The translations under genes and the position numbers were made by a program. From assembly GCA_015501585.1 (NCBI GenBank), contig JADNRY010000216.1:39682-103681 (forward strand): a DNA stretch of 64,000 bases, written 5' to 3'. This stretch comes from Rhodocollybia butyracea (lineage: Eukaryota; Basidiomycota; Agaricomycetes; Agaricales; Omphalotaceae). Position 1 is the stretch's first letter. Each line of letters starts with the position of its first letter. Under the pieces are notes generated by a model that saw only the letters and a list, made by a program, of their open reading frames with translations, searched no databases and was not told where the DNA came from. Positions 41,111-49,727 of this stretch are shown one piece after another.

Positions 41111-41208
41111 GCACTTCCCTATTTCCGCTTCTCTCTCTCTTATGATAACGTCGAGTCTCAAACGATGTATTCCCCCACTGGTCGTTCCCCTAACAAGACT
41201 ACTCAACC

Positions 41209-41848
41209 TGTTACGACCATGCCGCATCGGCATCCTTCGGATCATCACCGGATCACCTCTACTATCATCCCAGCATCATTCCGATTCCATCCCGTCTATT
41301 TCCGTCATCTTATCTCTTTTCGTTATCTTCCTATCTTATCTGTTATCTTCGTCCGATGACGTACCGCCATCGGACCTTTCGGATTACTTTCTAATTGGTT
41401 CTTATTATCTTTCGATTATATTCCCTTTCCGATCTATTGAGTATTATTGTCTTATGATTGTATTACTTACTTCGGTCTTCCGTATACGTTTCCGACTATT
41501 GTCTTCTACCGATCCGGAAGCCCCGGACTCTTAGTATATAAGTAGTGCAACCTTGTACAGTAGTCCTCAGTTTAAATATCAACTTGGATAAACCAGACCT
41601 TCTGTCCGACTAAGTTCCGCCTTAGTCTATCCATCACTCGTCTTACTCGTCGGCCGTTACATCGGCCGAATCTATCTTTATCTCCTGAACTTCATCTTGG
41701 GACTATTCGGCGTGACGAGGGTCTAGCTAATAGCTATACCGCACGTCCCACTTCTTCTTCGATCTCCGATATCGGTCCGAGACCCACTTCGTCAATACAT
41801 ACCTTTCAGATACCGATCGGTTCCCTTCGGTCTTGCACGATCTTAACA
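41209..41848 (+). repeat. 5' LTR
   Basis: 640 bp, TGTTA...TAACA ends. TATATAA at 41535-41541 and the predicted RNA start AGTTTAAATAT at 41569-41579, 34 bases downstream. Confidence 0.97.
41535..41579 (+). promoter_or_regulatory. LTR TATA box and predicted transcription start
   Basis: TATATAA at 41535-41541, followed 34 bases later by AGTTTAAATAT. The latter is placed as the RNA 5' end because it is complementary to the site just after the LTR. Confidence 0.7.
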
Positions 41849-41850
41849 GT

Positions 41851-41861
41851 ATATTTAAACT
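41851..41861 (+). other. Self-priming primer binding site (Tf1/sushi type)
   Basis: ATATTTAAACT, beginning two bases after the 5' LTR, is the exact 11-base reverse complement of AGTTTAAATAT at 41569-41579. In Tf1 and related chromoviruses the first 11 bases of the RNA fold back to prime minus-strand synthesis instead of a tRNA. No tRNA 3'-end complement is evident to me here. Confidence 0.75.
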
Positions 41862-41912
41862 TGTACTCGTTAACGCCGTATCTGACAAAACTGTTTTTTT
41901 TTTAAAAAACAA

Positions 41913-43690
41913 ATGCCTCCAAGAAAACCTCCTAGAATTCGGACAGTCTCTGAAACTCGGATCCAGCCGACCGAGACTCCTAATCCCTTTCTGGCCAATG
42001 CTCAGTCATTTTTGCCATACAATGATTCTATTTCTGCGGCCGGAAACCCTCGCCGACGTGGCTCGGGTGGCTTCGGACCCGCAACAGCTGTTCCGAACAC
42101 TTCCGTCTCTACTGAGGCAGTTCTAGGTAACATCAATGTCGACCAATACAACATTAAGGAAATTCCCAGTGCTAGTGGTACTGCATTAGTCCTTACTCCT
42201 CGTCGCGGAAGGATTGCTTCGGCACCTTCCCCTTCCTTTGCCGAACAGCTCCAAGGAGCTCTCTTCTCGAACCAATCTCGTACCACTACGGGTGACGACC
42301 GGCCTCCGATTGTCGAACAACCAGAGGACACAGGAGAAGGAGAATTTGCAGATGAAGGTGAGAATCCGGACGATAATCCTCCCGACAATCCTCCCGATGA
42401 CCCTCCTAACAACCCTGATGGTGATGATGGGGATGCTGCCCCTGATCCTCCTGGACCCCCTGGATCTCCGGACGACCCAGGTAATGGTGGTGGTGGTGGT
42501 GGTCCTCCGCCGCCCCCTCCCCCAGGTAATGGTGGTGGTGGTGATCCTCCCGGCGGTCCCCGCCGCGGAGGTAGATTTCTCGATGCTCGCGGCCAGCCTG
42601 ATGCCGGTGCAGTATTGGAACTAATGGACAAATTCGGAGGATCTATCGATTCCATCGCAAATGCGTTAACCCTCCTCGGTGGCAAGTCAACCGAACCATC
42701 GGAAGGCAAAGCCAAAGTCAAGGAGCCCGATGTTTTCGACGGCTCTGAACCTCGGAAACTCAAGGAGTTTCTCGTTTCCCTTTCCTTAGTCTTTATTGAC
42801 CGCCCATCATACTTCACTGACCAAAAAAAGGTCATGTATGCTCTTTCCTTCCTTAGCGGATCCGCTCGGGAATGGTTCGTACCGGACATCCTGGATCCGA
42901 ACCCGATAAACCCCCGGCATGGATGAACTCCTTTTCGGCACTCGTGAAGGAACTTCAAGACCATTTCGGTCTTTTCGATGCCCAGGGTGAAGCCGAGGAC
43001 AAACTCGGTAATATTCGGATGAAGGAGAATGAACAGGTTCGGAAGTATAACACCCGATTCAATACCTTGGCAGCAATGACAGGATGGGACGACATCGCCC
43101 TTAAGTGGGCTTATCAGCGTGGTTTGGCGACTAGGATCAAGGACGAGATGGTTCATGGTCCAACACCGGCAACGCTTTCGGCATACCGCGCCAAAGTGCT
43201 TGAGATTGATAATCGGCACTGGCGGCGCGAAGAGGAACGTAAAAGAGAGGTCGCAAGGTCTTCCGGAGGTGGCTCCGGCGGTAAAACTTCCTCTCCGACG
43301 AAAAAGGGTTCTCCGAACTCTTCCTCTCAAAATAATCCTTCGCAGAATTCTGGTTTTAACAAACCAAACAACTCTTCCCAAGGCTCCGGACAGCAACCGA
43401 AAAAGCCTTGGAACAACAACAACAAATCGGGCCCTTCAGGTTCCGGTTCCAACAAGTCTGGATCTTCGGTCAGCTCTGCACCGAAACCTTACGCCAACCT
43501 TCTCGGCGCCGACGGACGACTTAAGCCTTCCGAAGTGGAACGCCGAAAGAAGGGAGGCCTGTGCATGATTTGTGGTGGAAAGCATAAAGCAGAGAATTGT
43601 GATAAGAAGAGGTCAGGGGATTCTCGTGCCCGGGCCACTTCGACCAAGGAATCTGCGACTAATCCAACCGATACCGGTTCGGAAAAATAG
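41913..43690 (+). pseudogene. gag: gag of the gypsy element (frame changes near 42905)
   Basis: Starts MPPRKPPRIRTVSETR. A very proline/glycine/aspartate-rich segment (about 42360-42560) is followed by the retrotransposon gag domain: KVKEPDVFDGSEPRKLKEFL, VMYALSFLSGSAREWF. At about 42905 the frame stops being usable and continues in the -1 frame with AWMNSFSALVKELQDHFGLF, NEQVRKYNTRFNTLAAMTGW and DIALKWAYQRGL. A basic Ser/Asn-rich region and a zinc knuckle CMICGGKHKAENC (C-X2-C-X3-H-X4-C, one residue shorter than the classic knuckle) end near 43690. The change point contains AAACCCC in X-XXY-YYZ register, so programmed -1 slippage is conceivable; a 1-base deletion is the simpler reading. Confidence 0.88.
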
Positions 43691-46395
43691 TCCGCAGCTC
43701 CCGGACCCCGGTACGAAACGGGAGCTGCGTTGATCAGGTTCGTGCCTCTGGGGAAGTCTATCTCAACGCGTCCGCTCTTTCCGATTATGAACGATCACTT
43801 ACAATTTCTTTATCTACTGAATTCCCTCTTCCCGAAGATTCCGATGAATCTTCCGCTCTTTTAAAGTTTATTACTCTCGTAGACTCCGGTTCTACCGATT
43901 GTTTCCTTGATTCCCGTTATGTAAATTTAAACTCTATTCCAACCTCTTCGATTCCACCGATCAATCTCCGACTCTTCGATGGTTCTCTTTCTCCAAAACC
44001 AATTTCCGAAGTTGCGACTTTGGAAGTTCGGTTTCCGTCCGGCGAGCTGCTACCTCTGGCATTTTATGTCACTTCTTTGGACTCATCTTGTAAAGCTGTT
44101 TTAGGATACAGTTTCTTGTCCCGCTACAATCCGTTGATTGACTGGGTCACCAGAACCATTACTTTCCGTAACACCGAGCACCCTGTTTCCGCTCAGACGT
44201 CTTCGCTTCTCGGATCCGCGTTAGGACCGAAAGCACCGGTTTCCTCCACGAAACCACCTACTATTCCGATTCGGCCGGCACCTTCGCCGCCGACTCAAAC
44301 TCGCTCTCGCCAACCTCGTCCTCTATCAGACAGGTTTCCTTTCGAACCAATCTATTCCTACCCTTCGGTTGCGCAAATGGCTTCGCGTTTAGAAACTCCT
44401 GAAGTTGATATCGCACTAGTCGGCGCCGCCGCCTTCCATAAGGCTTGTCAAGATTCAGGTAGGGAACCGACGCTTCTCCGGGTCATTGACCCCGAAGTAT
44501 CGGCACACTATGCAGCATCTGGTCCTTCGGCCAGGAGTGCCTCTTCCGAGGCACTTCCGATCCCTGCAGACTACCTTGACTTCGCCGACGTTTTCGATGA
44601 AGTCGCGTCCGAGGTTCTTCCTGAACATCGTTCTTTTGATCTCAAAATTGATCTGGTGGAAGGCGCTGAGCCCCCGCTCGGTCGCCTTTACCCTCTCTCT
44701 CCAACAGAGCAGCAGGCTCTTCGCGATTTCTTGGATAAGCAACTCGCTACCGGTGTCATTCGACCCTCTTCCTCTCCGCATGGTGCTCCGGTCCTCTTCG
44801 TACCGAAGAAGGACGGTAAACTTCGGCTTTGTGTGGACTTCCGAGGATTGAACAAGATTACCAAGAAGGATCGCTACCCGCTGCCTCTAATCTCGGATCT
44901 TTTGGATGCTCCGAAAAAAGCTAAAATCTACACCAAACTCGACCTGGCCCACGCCTATCATCTCGTCCGAATTGCCGATGGCGACGAATGGAAAACCACT
45001 TTTCGGACCCGATGGGGTTCCTACGAATGGTTAGTTATGCCCTTCGGTTTGACTAACGCTCCCGCGGCTTTTCAAAGGTTCATCAACAACATATTCTCGG
45101 ACATGCTCGACGTTTGCGTCATAGTTTACCTGGACGACATCCTCATCTATTCCGACAATCCAGAACAGCACTTGGAACACGTCCGCGAAGTCCTTCGGCG
45201 GCTCCGTACAAACGGCCTTTTTCTCAATCCTGCGAAGTGCTTCTGGTCGGTCGATACGGTCGAATATCTCGGTTACATTCTCTCTCCGGCAGGATTGACC
45301 ATGGCCGAAGATAAGGTTAAAGCTATTGTGGACTGGCCGGTTCCTCGTAAAGTCAAAGACATCCAATCTTTTCTCGGTTTCGCTAATTTCTACCGACGTT
45401 TTATTTATAATTATAGCGACATCGTCGTACCGATGACTCGTCTTACCCGGAAGGGTGTGGCATGGCTCTGGTCGTCGGCATGTCAGGATTCCTTCGAAAA
45501 ACTCAAGTATGCCTTCACACATGCACCCATTCTCACACATTGGGAACCAAATTGTCCACTTATCGTGGAAACCGATGCTTCCGACTACGCCTTAGCGGCT
45601 ATCCTCTCGATCCGACTCTCAGATGGAGACATCCATCCAATCGCTTTCCTCTCTCGGACCTTCCAAGCCGCCGAGCTCAACTACGATACTCACGACAAGG
45701 AGCTCTTAGCCATTTTTGAGGCTTTCAAAGCCTGGCGGCACTACCTCGAGGGTTCGGGAGACCCGATTGATGTTGTTACTGATCACAAGAACCTCGAGTA
45801 TTTCTCTACTACTAAAGTACTAACTCGGCGACAGGTTCGGTGGTCCGAATACCTTCACACTTTCAACATGATCATTCGGTTCCGACCCGGAAAGCTCGGT
45901 GAGAAACCGGACTCCATCACTAGACGTTGGGACGTCTACCCAAAAGAGGGGGATAACGGCTACGCGCAAGTTAATCCACACAACTTCAGACCTATCTTTA
46001 CTAATGAGCAATTGACCGCGTCACTCCGAGCTACCTTCCTTGAAGGACCGGCTCTCCGAGCTTCCGTAGTTATGGACATCAACTCACTTCACCAGTCCAT
46101 TCGGTCTTCCCTTTTGCTCGATCCTCAGTCAGTACAAGGTCTTGAGCTTGCAAAAGCTCCGACCGACTCCCGATGGAAACTAGGTTCTGATGGTCTATTA
46201 CGATTAGACAATCGGATATTTGTTCCCAACAATTCCGACCTGCGACTTCAGGTTTTACGATACTTTCACGACCATCCTCTCTCTGGTCATTTCGGTCAAA
46301 ATCGGACCCTAGAGGCTATCCGACGCCAATACACTTGGCCTAAGATTCGGACCTTTGTTAGGGACTATGTCTCTTCTTGCACTGTATGCAGTTGA
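43663..46395 (+). pseudogene. pol: pol of the gypsy element: protease, RT, RNase H, integrase start
   Basis: The frame is open from 43663, overlapping the gag end by 28 bases in the -1 frame, with GGAAAAATAG at the overlap. An aspartic protease motif, FITLVDSGSTDCFLDSRY (about 43867), is followed by reverse transcriptase: GVIRPSSSPHGAPVLFVPKK, LCVDFRGLNKITKKDRYPLP, KLDLAHAYHLVRI and the active site VYLDDILIYS (about 45127). RNase H has IVETDASDYALAAILS, DKELLAIFEAFKAWRHYL and VVTDHKNLEYF. The integrase HHCC finger has HPLSGHFGQNRTLEAIRRQY and SSCTVC. TGA at 46393-46395, probably from CGA, cuts the frame at the integrase finger; the frame is otherwise open into the catalytic core. Confidence 0.95.
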
Positions 46396-47026
46396 AACAA
46401 GTCTCGCCGACATCGGCCGTACGGACTACTCAAACCTCTTCCGGTTCCGACTCGACCTTGGGATTCAATTTCTATGGATTTCATTGAACAACTTCCGGAC
46501 TCCGATGGCTATACCGCCATCTTGGTTATTGTGGATCGCGCTTCGAAGCAAGCCATTTTTATTCCTACTTACGACACTATCACCTCCGAGCAACTTGCCG
46601 AGTTGTTCGTCTTGCATGTTTTCTCTAAGCACGGAGTTCCCTCGCACGTTACATCGGACCGAGGTTCCGAATTCGTGTCTGCATAAGATTCGGACCTTTG
46701 TTAGGGACTATGTCTCTTCTTGCACTGTATGCAGTTGAAACAAGTCTCGCCGACATCGGCCGTACAGACTACTCAAACCTCTTCCGGTTCCGACTCGACC
46801 TTGGGATTCAATTTCTATGGATTTCATTGAACAACTTCCGGACTCCGATGGCTATACCGCCATCTTGGTTATTGTGGATCGCGCTTCGAAGCAAGCCATT
46901 TTTATTCCTACTTACGACACTATCACCTCCGAGCAACTTGCCGAGTTGTTCGTCTTGCATGTTTTCTCTAAGCACGGAGTTCCCTCGCACGTTACATCGG
47001 ACCGAGGTTCCGAATTCGTGTCTGTA
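46341..47026 (+). repeat. 343-bp tandem duplication inside integrase
   Basis: Copies 46341-46683 and 46684-47026, both starting TAAGATTCGGACCTTTG and ending near GAATTCGTGTCTG. I see one internal difference (GTACGGAC versus GTACAGAC). 343 is not a multiple of three, so the second copy is out of frame with the first. Confidence 0.95.
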
Positions 47027-47436
47027 CTCGGCCGACCGAGAAGTTCGCCGAAAAGTATCTTGGTCCTTTCAAGGTCCTTGAGCGCTCCGGCTCCCTTTCC
47101 TATAAGCTCCAACTTCCGGACTACCTTCGCCGAATCCATCCGGTGTTCCATGTATCACAACTTGAGCCTTCGATTCCGAACTCAATTCCAAATCGGATTC
47201 AGCCACCTCCCCCACCAATTGAAGTTGATGGTGAAGAAGAATACAATGTGGCGGAAATCCTCAACTCGAAGATCGACCGAAGGTACAAACGTTGTCCTCT
47301 ACGATACTACATCCGATGGGCTGGTTACGAAGGAACCGATGACGAGTTCGCTTGGATTGCGGCCAACGAGCTACATGCCGATGAACTAGTTCCAGCATTC
47401 CATCTTCGGTATCCAAGCAAACCCGGACCTACTTAG
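46396..47436 (+). pseudogene. Integrase core (duplicated, deleted) and chromodomain
   Basis: Both duplicate copies encode the integrase core start, SMDFIEQLPDSDGYTAILVI (first Asp), and SHVTSDRGSEFVS (second Asp). The segment that should hold the catalytic Glu is missing: after the second copy the sequence jumps to TEKFAEKYLGPFKVLE and LPDYLRRIHPVFHVSQLEP in another frame. The C-terminus is a chromodomain with EEEYNVAEILNSKIDRRYK, LRYYIRWAGYEGTDDEFAWI and a stop near 47436. Chromodomains steer integration of this lineage to particular chromatin. As written, no active integrase can be made. Confidence 0.93.
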
Positions 47437-47789
47437 TCCTTGTGCGTACTTATATTTTGATTTTTACATCACTTTTCCAAGCGTCCAACAATGGACGTCG
47501 GAGGGGTTCGATTGCCGTGATAGCAAATTGAGCGATCACCCTTTTCCTTATCATTTTCTTTTTTCCGACTTTTCCGATTCCGGCTTCGGCCGCATTTAAA
47601 CTCACTTTAATCCTTACATTTCACTCAAGTTTTTAAAACAAAGCTTTTCGATATTATATACAATTACTTTTATGCCCTTACGGGCCGACAACTTTCCATA
47701 CGATAAAACAAAAAATCCAAAAAAAAAAAAAACTACGAAGTCCAAAAGAATTATTACGCAGGCCGAGGCTTCGGCCGACGGTTCTCTAC
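47437..47789. other. Non-coding gap between pol and the antisense gene
   Basis: About 350 bp with no reading frame. AT-rich with A-tracts near 47705-47735, next to the converging ends of pol (plus) and the antisense gene (minus); it probably serves as 3' untranslated sequence for one or both. Confidence 0.6.
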
Positions 47790-48842
47790 CTACTCTTCCT
47801 CTCCCTCTCCATCTTCATCACCGCCTTCCTCCGTATCCTTCTCCTTCCCTTTTCCCTTCGACTTGGGTTTTGGCCTCGACGGAGTTCGAAGTGGCCTCCC
47901 CTCCTCTTGGAAACCCCGGCGCGTACCAACTAAGAAACGTCGGAGGGCCGACAGTTCCGCCGTCAGGCCTCCGACCTGCTCCTCCAACGTGCTCGAGAGC
48001 CGAGCAACCTCTGCTCGCAGTCCCGCCACCTCCGCCGATAAACCCTCGCTTTCTTCTTCCACCTTCCTCCGGCTTTCCCGGCCGACGAGCGAACACTTCA
48101 CCTTTGAAGTGTTGCACTCAGAGCAGGCCTCGGTCTTCCCGCCTCGCCGAGTGCAACCCAACTCCTTCGCCTCGCACCGAACGCACTTCTTCCCGCTCTT
48201 CTTCGGCTTCTTCGGCTCCGGTTCGTCGTCGCCGTCGTCATCGTCATCGTCGCCATTGTCGGGGGATGGAGGATCATCCTCGGGACCTGAGTCGGGGACC
48301 TACAATGGGTTAGAAAAGAAAAAAAAAAAAAACTTTCTCAAGTCCCAAAACGGACTCACCCTCGCGGCCGACTTCGGCGCCGCTCTCTTCCTCTTTAACC
48401 CACTTGGGGTACTCGGCCCCGCGACATTCTCCTTCTGCGCTTCCTGCTGACGCCGCAAGGCAGCCGCCATCCTTTTCTCTCTCTCCTTGGTCGCCTTTTC
48501 ATCGGCCGACGCTGCTTTCGACTTGGCAATTTCGTATGCCCGGAGAGTCTCGGCCGCCCGCTTCTCCTTGGCTTTCCTCTCTCGCTCAGCCTTTTCGCTG
48601 GCTTCCCTCGCTGCCAGCTCGGCCGCTGCCCTTTCCGCCTCCCTCTGCTGCTCTTCGACAAATAAACGGAGCCGCTCGGCCTCTGCTGCTGCGGCCTCCT
48701 CCTGTCGCTTCTTCTCCTTTTTCGCCGCCCGTTCGGCCGCCTTCCTCTCGAGTAAAGCTTTTGCTTCCGCTGCTGCTTCCTCGGCTTTCCTGAATTCCTC
48801 GTCGGAGTCGTCGGATACGTGCGAGTTGGAGCGAGAAGGCAT
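47790..48842 (-). CDS. Antisense zinc-cluster / coiled-coil protein encoded inside the gypsy element
   Basis: Two exons, 48842-48360 and 48299-47790, join in frame across a 60-bp intron (GTGAGT...TTGTAG), giving 330 residues. Residues about 15-150 form a very Ala/Glu/Lys/Arg-rich coiled coil. A basic GLKRKRAAPK stretch, an acidic run and KKPKKSGKK follow. Then a six-cysteine cluster: Cys 200, 203, 210, 220, 223, 230 (C-X2-C-X6-C-X9-C-X2-C-X6-C), the spacing of fungal Zn(II)2Cys6 DNA-binding domains. A second leucine-heptad coil lies at about 236-285 (LSAEVAGLRAEVARLSSTLE). The tail is a basic-then-acidic low-complexity region. It lies opposite in direction to gag-pol, between pol and the 3' LTR. 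It is the only intact gene of the element. Nuclear DNA binding is inferred from the cluster, basic patches and coil; the target is unknown. Confidence 0.85.
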
Positions 48843-48894
48843 GGTAATAAGAAAATTGATGGGGTACTTAGGGAAATTTTGGATTTTGGCACGA

Positions 48895-48905
48895 CCTTAT
48901 ATACC
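48895..48905 (-). promoter_or_regulatory. TATA box of the antisense gene
   Basis: On the minus strand GGTATATAAGG, with TATATAA at 48903-48897, lies about 55 bases upstream of the ATG at 48842. It is outside the 3' LTR, so the antisense gene seems to have its own promoter. Confidence 0.6.
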
Positions 48906-49067
48906 CAGGCGCTTAGACTCTATAGGATCACAGGAACGATAAGCGGAGATCTCGGTGACGTCTTAGAATCTTCTAGACTTTCTCACATCACGGTGACCCT
49001 GACTCTCGGCCGATATACTATCGGTCCGACTTCGGCTCTGGACTTAGAGGCTTTCAAAGGCTCAAGC

Positions 49068-49082
49068 CTAAGAGGGGGATAC
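49068..49082 (+). other. Polypurine tract before the 3' LTR
   Basis: AAGAGGGGGAT lies immediately upstream of the 3' LTR, the expected plus-strand primer site. Confidence 0.75.
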
Positions 49083-49722
49083 TGTTACGACCATGCCGCA
49101 TCGGCATCCTTCGGATCATCACCGGATCACCTCTACTATCATCCCAGCATCATTCCGATTCCATCCCGTCTATTTCCGTCATCTTATCTCTTTTCGTTAT
49201 CTTCCTATCTTATCTGTTATCTTCGTCCGATGACGTACCGCCATCGGACCTTTCGGATTACTTTCTAATTGGTTCTTATTATCTTTCGATTATATTCCCT
49301 TTCCGATCTATTGAGTATTATTGTCTTATGATTGTATTACTTACTTCGGTCTTCCGTATACGTTTCCGACTATTGTCTTCTACCGATCCGGAAGCCCCGG
49401 ACTCTTAGTATATAAGTAGTGCAACCTTGTACAGTAGTCCTCAGTTTAAATATCAACTTGGATAAACCAGACCTTCTGTCCGACTAAGTTCCGCCTTAGT
49501 CTATCCATCACTCGTCTTACTCGTCGGCCGTTACATCGGCCGAATCTATCTTTATCTCCTGAACTTCATCTTGGGACTATTCGGCGTGACGAGGGTCTAG
49601 CTAATAGCTATACCGCACGTCCCACTTCTTCTTCGATCTCCGATATTGGTCCGAGACCCACTTCGTCAATACATACCTTTCGGATACCGATCGGTTCCCT
49701 TCGGTCTTGCACGATCTTAACA
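49083..49722 (+). repeat. 3' LTR
   Basis: Same length as the 5' LTR. The differences I see are ATATTGG for ATATCGG and TTTCGGATACC for TTTCAGATACC, both in the distal third. Confidence 0.97.
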
Positions 49723-49727
49723 CAACC

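Follow-up and report, generated by a model that had tools for sequence, protein, structure and literature searches.

We analysed a 64,000-nucleotide stretch of contig JADNRY010000216.1 (hereafter the window) from Rhodocollybia butyracea (Omphalotaceae), a litter-decaying mushroom (PMC8480192), and searched the 95.6-Mb assembly of this species for copies and relatives of what the window contains. A Ty3/gypsy retrotransposon occupies positions 41209-49722, with two 640-bp long terminal repeats (LTRs) and the target-site duplication (TSD) CAACC. Between the integrase and the 3' LTR of this element, on the opposite strand and tail-to-tail with pol, sits a two-exon gene whose frame is open and encodes 330 residues (Table 1); read unspliced, the frame stops after 180 residues, at the acceptor TAG. 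An initial annotation of this DNA had described the gene together with a TATA box, a 60-bp intron and a six-cysteine cluster with the exact spacing of fungal binuclear clusters, and all of these are present as described. Its core claim, namely that an antisense, intron-containing gene with a Zn2Cys6-like cluster belongs to a gypsy element, is supported by our analysis.

The antisense gene is a standing part of its element family. Among paired integrase ends (75-100% identity), 37/41 have the zinc gene downstream and antisense within 4.5 kb, at a distance of 340-415 bp in 27 of the 37 pairs, confirming the expectation that related elements carry homologous antisense genes at the same place. These pairing counts are approximate: integrase ends were sampled (scores were computed for 126 of 545 candidates), pairing used the 84 of 128 integrase rows reaching query residue 300 or beyond, and the 85 gene rows were hand-picked from several searches with repeat fragments of one copy omitted. 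No listed integrase end lay upstream of 28 of these 85 gene rows. In a second family (L029, L033, L035 and others), the pol of L029 shares 83% protein identity with the window pol, and the antisense protein is approximately 38-45% identical to the window's over the cluster and coil. This family keeps exon 1 and has the intron at the same place (GTGAGT, CTAAC and TAG in L029 and L035), as does a nearer relative, L038 (GTAAGT, CTAAC and CAG). Six cysteines with a linker of 8 were read by eye in L033, L035 and L036. In L030 and L031, a promoter-like region is seemingly fused straight to the second half of the cluster (common reading ...GSTLPSIE...), an arrangement pointing to a derivative that has multiplied and whose antisense gene is shortened.

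The DNA of the antisense gene gave 47 genomic matches, fragments included. We compared the best 20 of these with their flanks, some clipped by contig ends; since the closest 20 were chosen, older copies are under-represented. The ATG and the GT..AG intron are present in 20/20 copies, and CTAAC in 19/20; intron length ranges from 49 to 67 bp and is a multiple of three in 8/20 copies. The cluster cysteine codons are TGC or TGT in 117/120 cells, the other 3 being alignment gaps. The spliced frame is intact in 6/20 copies and carries frameshifts or stops in the other 14, and the antisense gene therefore does not outlive its element. This corrects the earlier picture of an antisense frame left intact while the rest of the element decayed. 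The accompanying statement that gag, pol and integrase are all broken holds for gag, which is split, and for integrase, which is interrupted by a 343-bp tandem duplication, but not for the protease-reverse transcriptase-RNase H frame, which is open over 910 codons. In some other copies of the element, gag and/or pol frames are open as well.

Selection was examined by sorting variable exon sites by the number of copies with the rarer base, with expectations obtained by dealing the changes to sites with the same base and CpG context; columns four bases or fewer from a gap were dropped in every row except the window's. Among variants found in at least two copies, 58/100 were synonymous against 35.7 expected, a value reached by 0/2000 shuffles, and among singletons 37/113 were synonymous against 39.3 expected. 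The codons were therefore protected while the lineage multiplied and decayed neutrally once inserted. Controls were run on pol, gag and integrase (16, 12 and 19 rows, respectively). In pol, shared variants also showed an excess (63/133 synonymous vs 47.0 expected), and singletons a mild one (80/213 vs 66.3). Between more distant copies, the ratio of non-synonymous to synonymous divergence (dN/dS) was 0.13 for exon 2 of L009/L038, 0.12 for exon 1 of L029/L035 and 0.23 for exon 2 of L029/L030; synonymous sites were saturated for exon 1 of L009/L038 and in both L009/L029 comparisons. Selection on the antisense gene is thus purifying, the outcome that the initial annotation had named as support, and we consider it almost certain that this is a real, selected gene.

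Zn2Cys6 domains (PF00172) have the spacing C-X2-C-X6-C-X5-12-C-X2-C-X6-8-C, and the window cluster fits this pattern. In sequence profiles, Zn_clus was matched at E ≤ 0.1 in 20/32 alignment members, and the second half of the window exon-2 cluster alone reached 14.7 bits. In the window and L029 families, resemblance to the first half of Zn_clus is limited to this second half (CSECNTSKVKC in the window); three homologues (P0008, P0009 and P0012) match Zn_clus across both cluster halves. The two-zinc fold anticipated for this region was obtained in structure prediction, with modest scores: a Foldseek search of the exon-2 model against the PDB returned Zn2Cys6 domains in 22/22 rows, the best being PPR1 (probability 0.97, root-mean-square deviation 1.1 over 32 columns, E 0.32). 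PDB sequence rows of the profile over the cluster likewise include PPR1 (E 0.14), Gal4 and LAC9. A Zn2Cys6-type fold is, in our judgement, very probable.

Homologues were found beyond R. butyracea. A protein search with region 190-285 of the joined 330-residue protein gave no matches. With an exon-2 profile, 10 rows were obtained at E ≤ 10; the 5 with E below 1e-5 comprised two proteins each from R. butyracea and Lentinula and one unnamed protein. A second profile matched 233 proteins at E ≤ 1, and among the 120 listed, 117/117 named ones come from Lentinula species. Because this profile was built largely from Lentinula sequences and scored only the 7988 candidates sharing most words, nothing should be concluded from the lack of other genera among its hits. 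Full-length homologues have the same layout of coil, acidic stretch, cluster, coil and charged tail. The six-cysteine motif is present in 113/127 proteins retrieved (linker 11 in 111, linker 9 in 2), and several carry the UniProt label Zn(2)-C6 fungal-type. In Lentinula edodes, the gene model LENED_008927 (P0112) fuses the zinc cluster with integrase sequence from this lineage (33 residues aligned at 79% identity). Given their copy number, their often short contigs and this one gene model, the homologues appear to lie in elements. We suspect that many Lentinula database entries labelled hypothetical or Zn(2)-C6 fungal-type belong to transposons.

Zn2Cys6 proteins are a fungal regulator family with 72 matches at E ≤ 1 in this genome, and the three homologues that match Zn_clus over both halves would fit a captured host transcription-factor gene, now acting on host genes in a way that favours either the element or its host. 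We regard this as improbable. Two Lentinula queries retrieved no credible non-element relative or separate host homologue in the R. butyracea genome, all hits at E ≤ 0.05 lying at known element copies, and ancient capture is the form in which the idea could still apply. Moreover, the host does not preserve the gene, because singletons show neutral decay after insertion. Several of the genomic Zn_clus matches occur as equal-score pairs on two contigs, and the assembly may therefore hold both haplotypes.

The element itself has the gypsy order gag, reverse transcriptase, RNase H and integrase, as well as LTRs and a TSD, all recovered by Pfam and by inspection of the repeats; matches of the window pol frame to reverse transcriptase and RNase H are good. 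The lineage is chromovirus-like, and evidence for a chromodomain is weak: at the integrase end of copy L010, SH3_Tf2-1 is followed by a Chromo match of E 0.0011 and 19.3 bits, against a cut-off of 25.1. Matching 5-bp TSDs, each different, flank all nine fetched copies that have both LTRs in full. LTR divergence in these copies is 0.31-3.48%, and they are independent, fairly young insertions. The 343-bp integrase duplication of the window copy is either a real mutation or an assembly slip.

Table 1 Features of the window element and of the antisense genes (positions in the window unless a copy is named).
Feature	Position	Strand	Remarks
Antisense gene, exon 1	48360-48842	-	161 codons; long E/A/K-rich coiled-coil-like stretch, basic end
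KRKR near end of exon 1	48384-48395	-	read by eye; possible nuclear signal
Intron	48300-48359	-	60 bp, phase 0; GTGAGT, CTAAC, CCCATTGTAG
Antisense gene, exon 2	47790-48299	-	169 codons + stop; acidic stretch, six-cysteine cluster, coiled coil, charged tail
Cysteine cluster C-X2-C-X6-C-X9-C-X2-C-X6-C	48093-48185	-	residues 200-230
Predicted long helix after cluster	47901-48050	-	exon-2 residues 84-133; blocks 91-130 with mean predicted local distance difference test score (pLDDT) 95-98
Promoter candidate region, gene to 3' LTR	48843-49082	-	low diversity; blocks kept in related families
TATATAA box	48897-48903	-	19/20 copies
Two CGG/CCG inverted repeats (TCGGCCGA, TATCGGTCCGA)	49006-49029		upstream of antisense gene; candidate binding sites, lead only
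5' LTR	41209-41848	+	640 bp, TG...CA; TSD CAACC 41204-41208
gag	41886-43690	+	two overlapping frames in window copy; DUF4939, weak Ty3_capsid, Retrotrans_gag matches
pol frame (protease-reverse transcriptase-RNase H)	43663-46395	+	open 910 codons; RVT_1, RNase H, integrase H2C2
Tandem duplication in integrase	46338-47023	+	343-bp units 46338-46680 / 46681-47023, 2 mismatches
Remainder of integrase, different frame	46739-47389	+	rve match 30.1 bits, slightly below cut-off 32.6
3' LTR	49083-49722	+	2/640 mismatches vs 5' LTR; TSD CAACC 49723-49727
L042-type antisense gene	L042:172-1095	-	also L046, L047, L048; coiled coil

The region between the antisense gene and the 3' LTR is well kept. Over 19 rows (L025 was omitted, its upstream flank being foreign), nucleotide diversity was 0.019 in the first 120 bp upstream of the ATG and 0.029 in the 120 bp beyond, compared with 0.046 in the intron, 0.065-0.071 at third codon positions and 0.076 in the 80 bp downstream. 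L035 and L038 also have the TATATAA box, and the second family retains blocks in front of the gene (e.g., GTGCCAAAATCC). A conserved promoter region would also fit if the antisense RNA rather than the protein mattered, pairing with sense RNA to cause silencing or interference, with the frame as a by-product; retroelement antisense transcripts are described as able to work through double-stranded RNA (PMC7264820). Such an RNA-only role does not predict the codon selection, the exclusively synonymous variation of the cysteine codons or the homologues in another genus, and we find it quite implausible.

Two CGG/CCG inverted repeats before the antisense gene provide a lead, not proof, for where the protein might bind. 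Both recur in the LTR (41661-41669 and 41770-41780). In front of the gene, TCGGCCGAT and TATCGGTCCGA are separated by 13 bp, and each is found again in the LTR. Counting one LTR, no palindromic hexamer of the element is more over-represented than CGGCCG (16 vs approximately 2.5 expected), and TCGGCCGA occurs 5 times against 0.23 expected. In the region before the gene in related copies, L029 has an intact CGG/CCG repeat, and L035 and L038 have a degenerate one.

An antisense gene behind the integrase is not confined to the zinc type in this genome; other families have a different, coiled-coil one. The initial annotation had expected the arrangement to be unusual, which is not supported inside this genome. 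We sampled six more distant gypsy families (integrase 36-47% identical) directly past the integrase and found clear antisense frames in three of them (308 codons in L042, 289 in L044 and 174 in L041). The antisense frame of L040 is weaker, with 142 codons, about the length of its longest sense frame, and 27% identity to L042. L043 and L045 were not counted, because the longest antisense frame of each (332 and 197 codons, respectively) looks unrelated, that of L043 being RNase-H-like by eye. The L042 type has 26 genomic matches, and four of its members have open frames of 301-317 codons with 59-68% identity and proportions of non-synonymous and synonymous differences (pN and pS) of 0.18-0.24 and 0.65-0.82, respectively, showing that this gene is under strong constraint; in L042 and L046, the edge of the frame resembles a splice acceptor. 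The L044/L041 type, which includes L049, has 17 genomic matches. Among distant integrase ends, 20/43 have an antisense gene of one of these two types downstream, and for 23/43 none was found. No Pfam match above cut-off was obtained for the four distant-family antisense proteins scanned, and no cysteine cluster was seen in them by eye.

Antisense genes at this position have been described in other systems. In plant gypsy elements, antisense open reading frames between pol and the 3' LTR are known as aORF-3R (Grande gene23, RIRE2 and Retand), and the mushroom gene shares with them its place, its antisense direction and its presence in most copies (PMC7264820, PMC11963269). For Grande, an own promoter upstream of gene23 and a nuclear protein are reported, and the TRP28 domain of Retand is predicted to bind DNA; the function of retrotransposon antisense accessory genes is described as unknown (PMC7264820, PMC11963269). 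The mushroom gene lies antisense to gag-pol between pol and the 3' LTR, and both its recurrence among the paired integrase ends and its purifying selection agree with the aORF-3R pattern. In contrast to the plant proteins, however, it has an intron and a six-cysteine cluster, and its host is a mushroom. Pfam scans of the antisense proteins gave no match to TRP28 (PF04195), and the word 'intron' is absent from the main text of PMC7264820 and PMC11963269. In fungi, Boty-like gypsy elements of Botrytis cinerea have an additional antisense gene, brtn, as cited in PMC7264820 and PMC8365987. By description, it is similarly an antisense gene between pol and the 3' LTR of a fungal gypsy element, in an ascomycete host. 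It was reportedly described by Zhao et al. (2011) in Virology.

HBZ of human T-cell leukaemia virus type 1 (HTLV-1), like APH, is an antisense gene near the 3' LTR, spliced, and encoding a nuclear protein with a dimerising transcription-factor domain (PMC10186651). HBZ has a bZIP domain and a TATA-less promoter inside the 3' LTR and acts via CREB-2 (PMC10186651), whereas the mushroom protein has a zinc cluster; bZIP_1 reached 13.5 bits against a cut-off of 27.6, over profile positions 18-51 of 64. We therefore treat HBZ as a functional parallel, claim no relatedness, and claim membership in neither the TRP28 nor the HBZ protein family. With Gal4-type regulators (PPR1, GAL4, LAC9, HAP1, PUT3 and Leu3), the mushroom protein shares the cysteine spacing, the predicted two-helix cluster fold and the coiled coil after the cluster, but its cluster lies mid-protein between two coiled coils and reaches no Pfam cut-off. 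None of the literature matches listed mentions, in its title or the beginning of its abstract, a gypsy element whose antisense gene has a zinc cluster, and the word 'antisense' is absent from the main text of the fungal gypsy surveys PMC3248453 and PMC2864245. The class is thus already known (plant aORF-3R and Boty brtn); the zinc-cluster, intron-bearing version is new within it.

We propose that the antisense gene would be transcribed from its own TATA promoter beside the 3' LTR. Following established retrotransposon biology, its intron would outlast reverse transcription because the sense genomic RNA holds the complement of the intron, which is not spliced. The spliced antisense mRNA would yield a probably nuclear protein composed of a coiled coil, an acidic stretch, the Zn2Cys6-like cluster and a second coiled coil, which most likely dimerises and binds the CGG/CCG inverted repeats of both the LTR and its own promoter. 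Once bound, it would adjust, and probably mainly limit, transcription of the element, in the manner of HBZ in HTLV-1. We give a rough probability of 0.5 to the protein being a DNA-binding regulator of the element's own transcription; should it be one, repression seems somewhat likelier than activation. LTR binding, copy-number control and action on host genes are the possible roles that the initial annotation raised.

The protein could instead act in the nucleus on integration, through entry of the pre-integration complex, target choice or the chromatin of the insertion site. Plant antisense accessory proteins have been discussed in relation to nuclear import and transposition itself (PMC7264820), the mushroom gene adjoins the integrase and co-occurs with it, and the coiled coils and basic patch would suit a binding partner. 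However, the cluster resembles only sequence-specific DNA-binding domains, and the well-kept, TATA-bearing region before the gene suggests control apart from gag-pol. We therefore consider a role in integration unlikely, if worth keeping in view.

Several observations weigh against a transcriptional regulator, beginning with the frame. In the six-frame control, one sense frame with the same wobble came close to the antisense frame in synonymous variants (26/49 and 27/51 vs 30/49 and 28/51); in the window copy, that sense frame is interrupted by a stop within the exon-1 stretch and is free of stops across the exon-2 stretch, and the remaining four frames showed no synonymous excess. This similarity, the low complexity of the protein outside the cluster and the ease with which such frames arise in GC-rich repeats would all fit a chance open frame on a non-coding strand. 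Protein homology, and not wobble alone, decides for the antisense frame. The synonymous excess of shared variants, low dN/dS, the conserved intron, the Lentinula homologues and the consistent predicted fold led us to reject a chance frame as scarcely credible.

Conservation among copies also raises difficulties. Exon 1 lacks the same 11 bp, located at a short GCGGC repeat, in 4/20 copies (L017, L018, L026 and L028), and a 2-bp net loss in the exon-2 tail is found in 7/20. Because several copies have frameshifts in common, the gene may be dispensable in trans, unless the frameshifts arose repeatedly at short repeats; the 11-bp loss itself could reflect recurrent slippage, recombination or the spread of copies with a broken antisense gene. 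Zn_clus stayed under its cut-off in all members scanned (best 19.4 bits vs 21), and direct Pfam identification of the window protein was rejected, as its whole exon 2 had no Zn_clus match in the Pfam scan. Foldseek E-values were weak, with 0 rows at or below 0.001, and VIA, which re-aligns only Foldseek's own rows, gave Z ≤ 3.8.

The same applies to the promoter and the candidate sites. The related copy L029 is without the TATATAA box. CGGCCG enrichment was considered as a trait of the related family too and was rejected, since 2 occurrences were counted in 7 kb of L029. Likewise rejected was the idea that the candidate sites are better kept than the LTR at large: they are exact in 24, 19 and 22 of 28 LTRs, and all LTR 7-mers are kept at a mean of 0.85 (median 0.93). 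The promoter site is exact in 14/20 copies, and the number of words that LTR and promoter have in common is, taken by itself, not significant (P = 0.05 for 9-mers and P = 0.09 for 11-mers).

A wider generalisation, which we offer tentatively and with some doubt, is that mushroom chromoviruses generally have a self-contained antisense unit behind the integrase, made up of its own promoter and an intron-bearing gene for a coiled-coil protein that can be exchanged; at least two kinds that look unrelated are present in this one genome. In this lineage, the protein would be Gal4-like and would read CGG palindromes in the LTR and its own promoter, forming an HBZ-like latency switch of independent origin that would be widespread in shiitake and its relatives.

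Here, an antisense accessory gene has a recognisable DNA-binding-type domain and a possible target in the LTR and its own promoter, dozens of copies are available for evolutionary tests, and relatives occur in Lentinula, including cultivated shiitake. For these reasons, whether retrotransposons encode their own transcriptional regulators becomes a directly testable question. The gene also shows a way for a retroelement to retain an intron-bearing gene. Since selection has preserved a gene for a transcription-factor-like zinc protein on the opposite strand of the element, our results suggest that the element brings along its own regulator.
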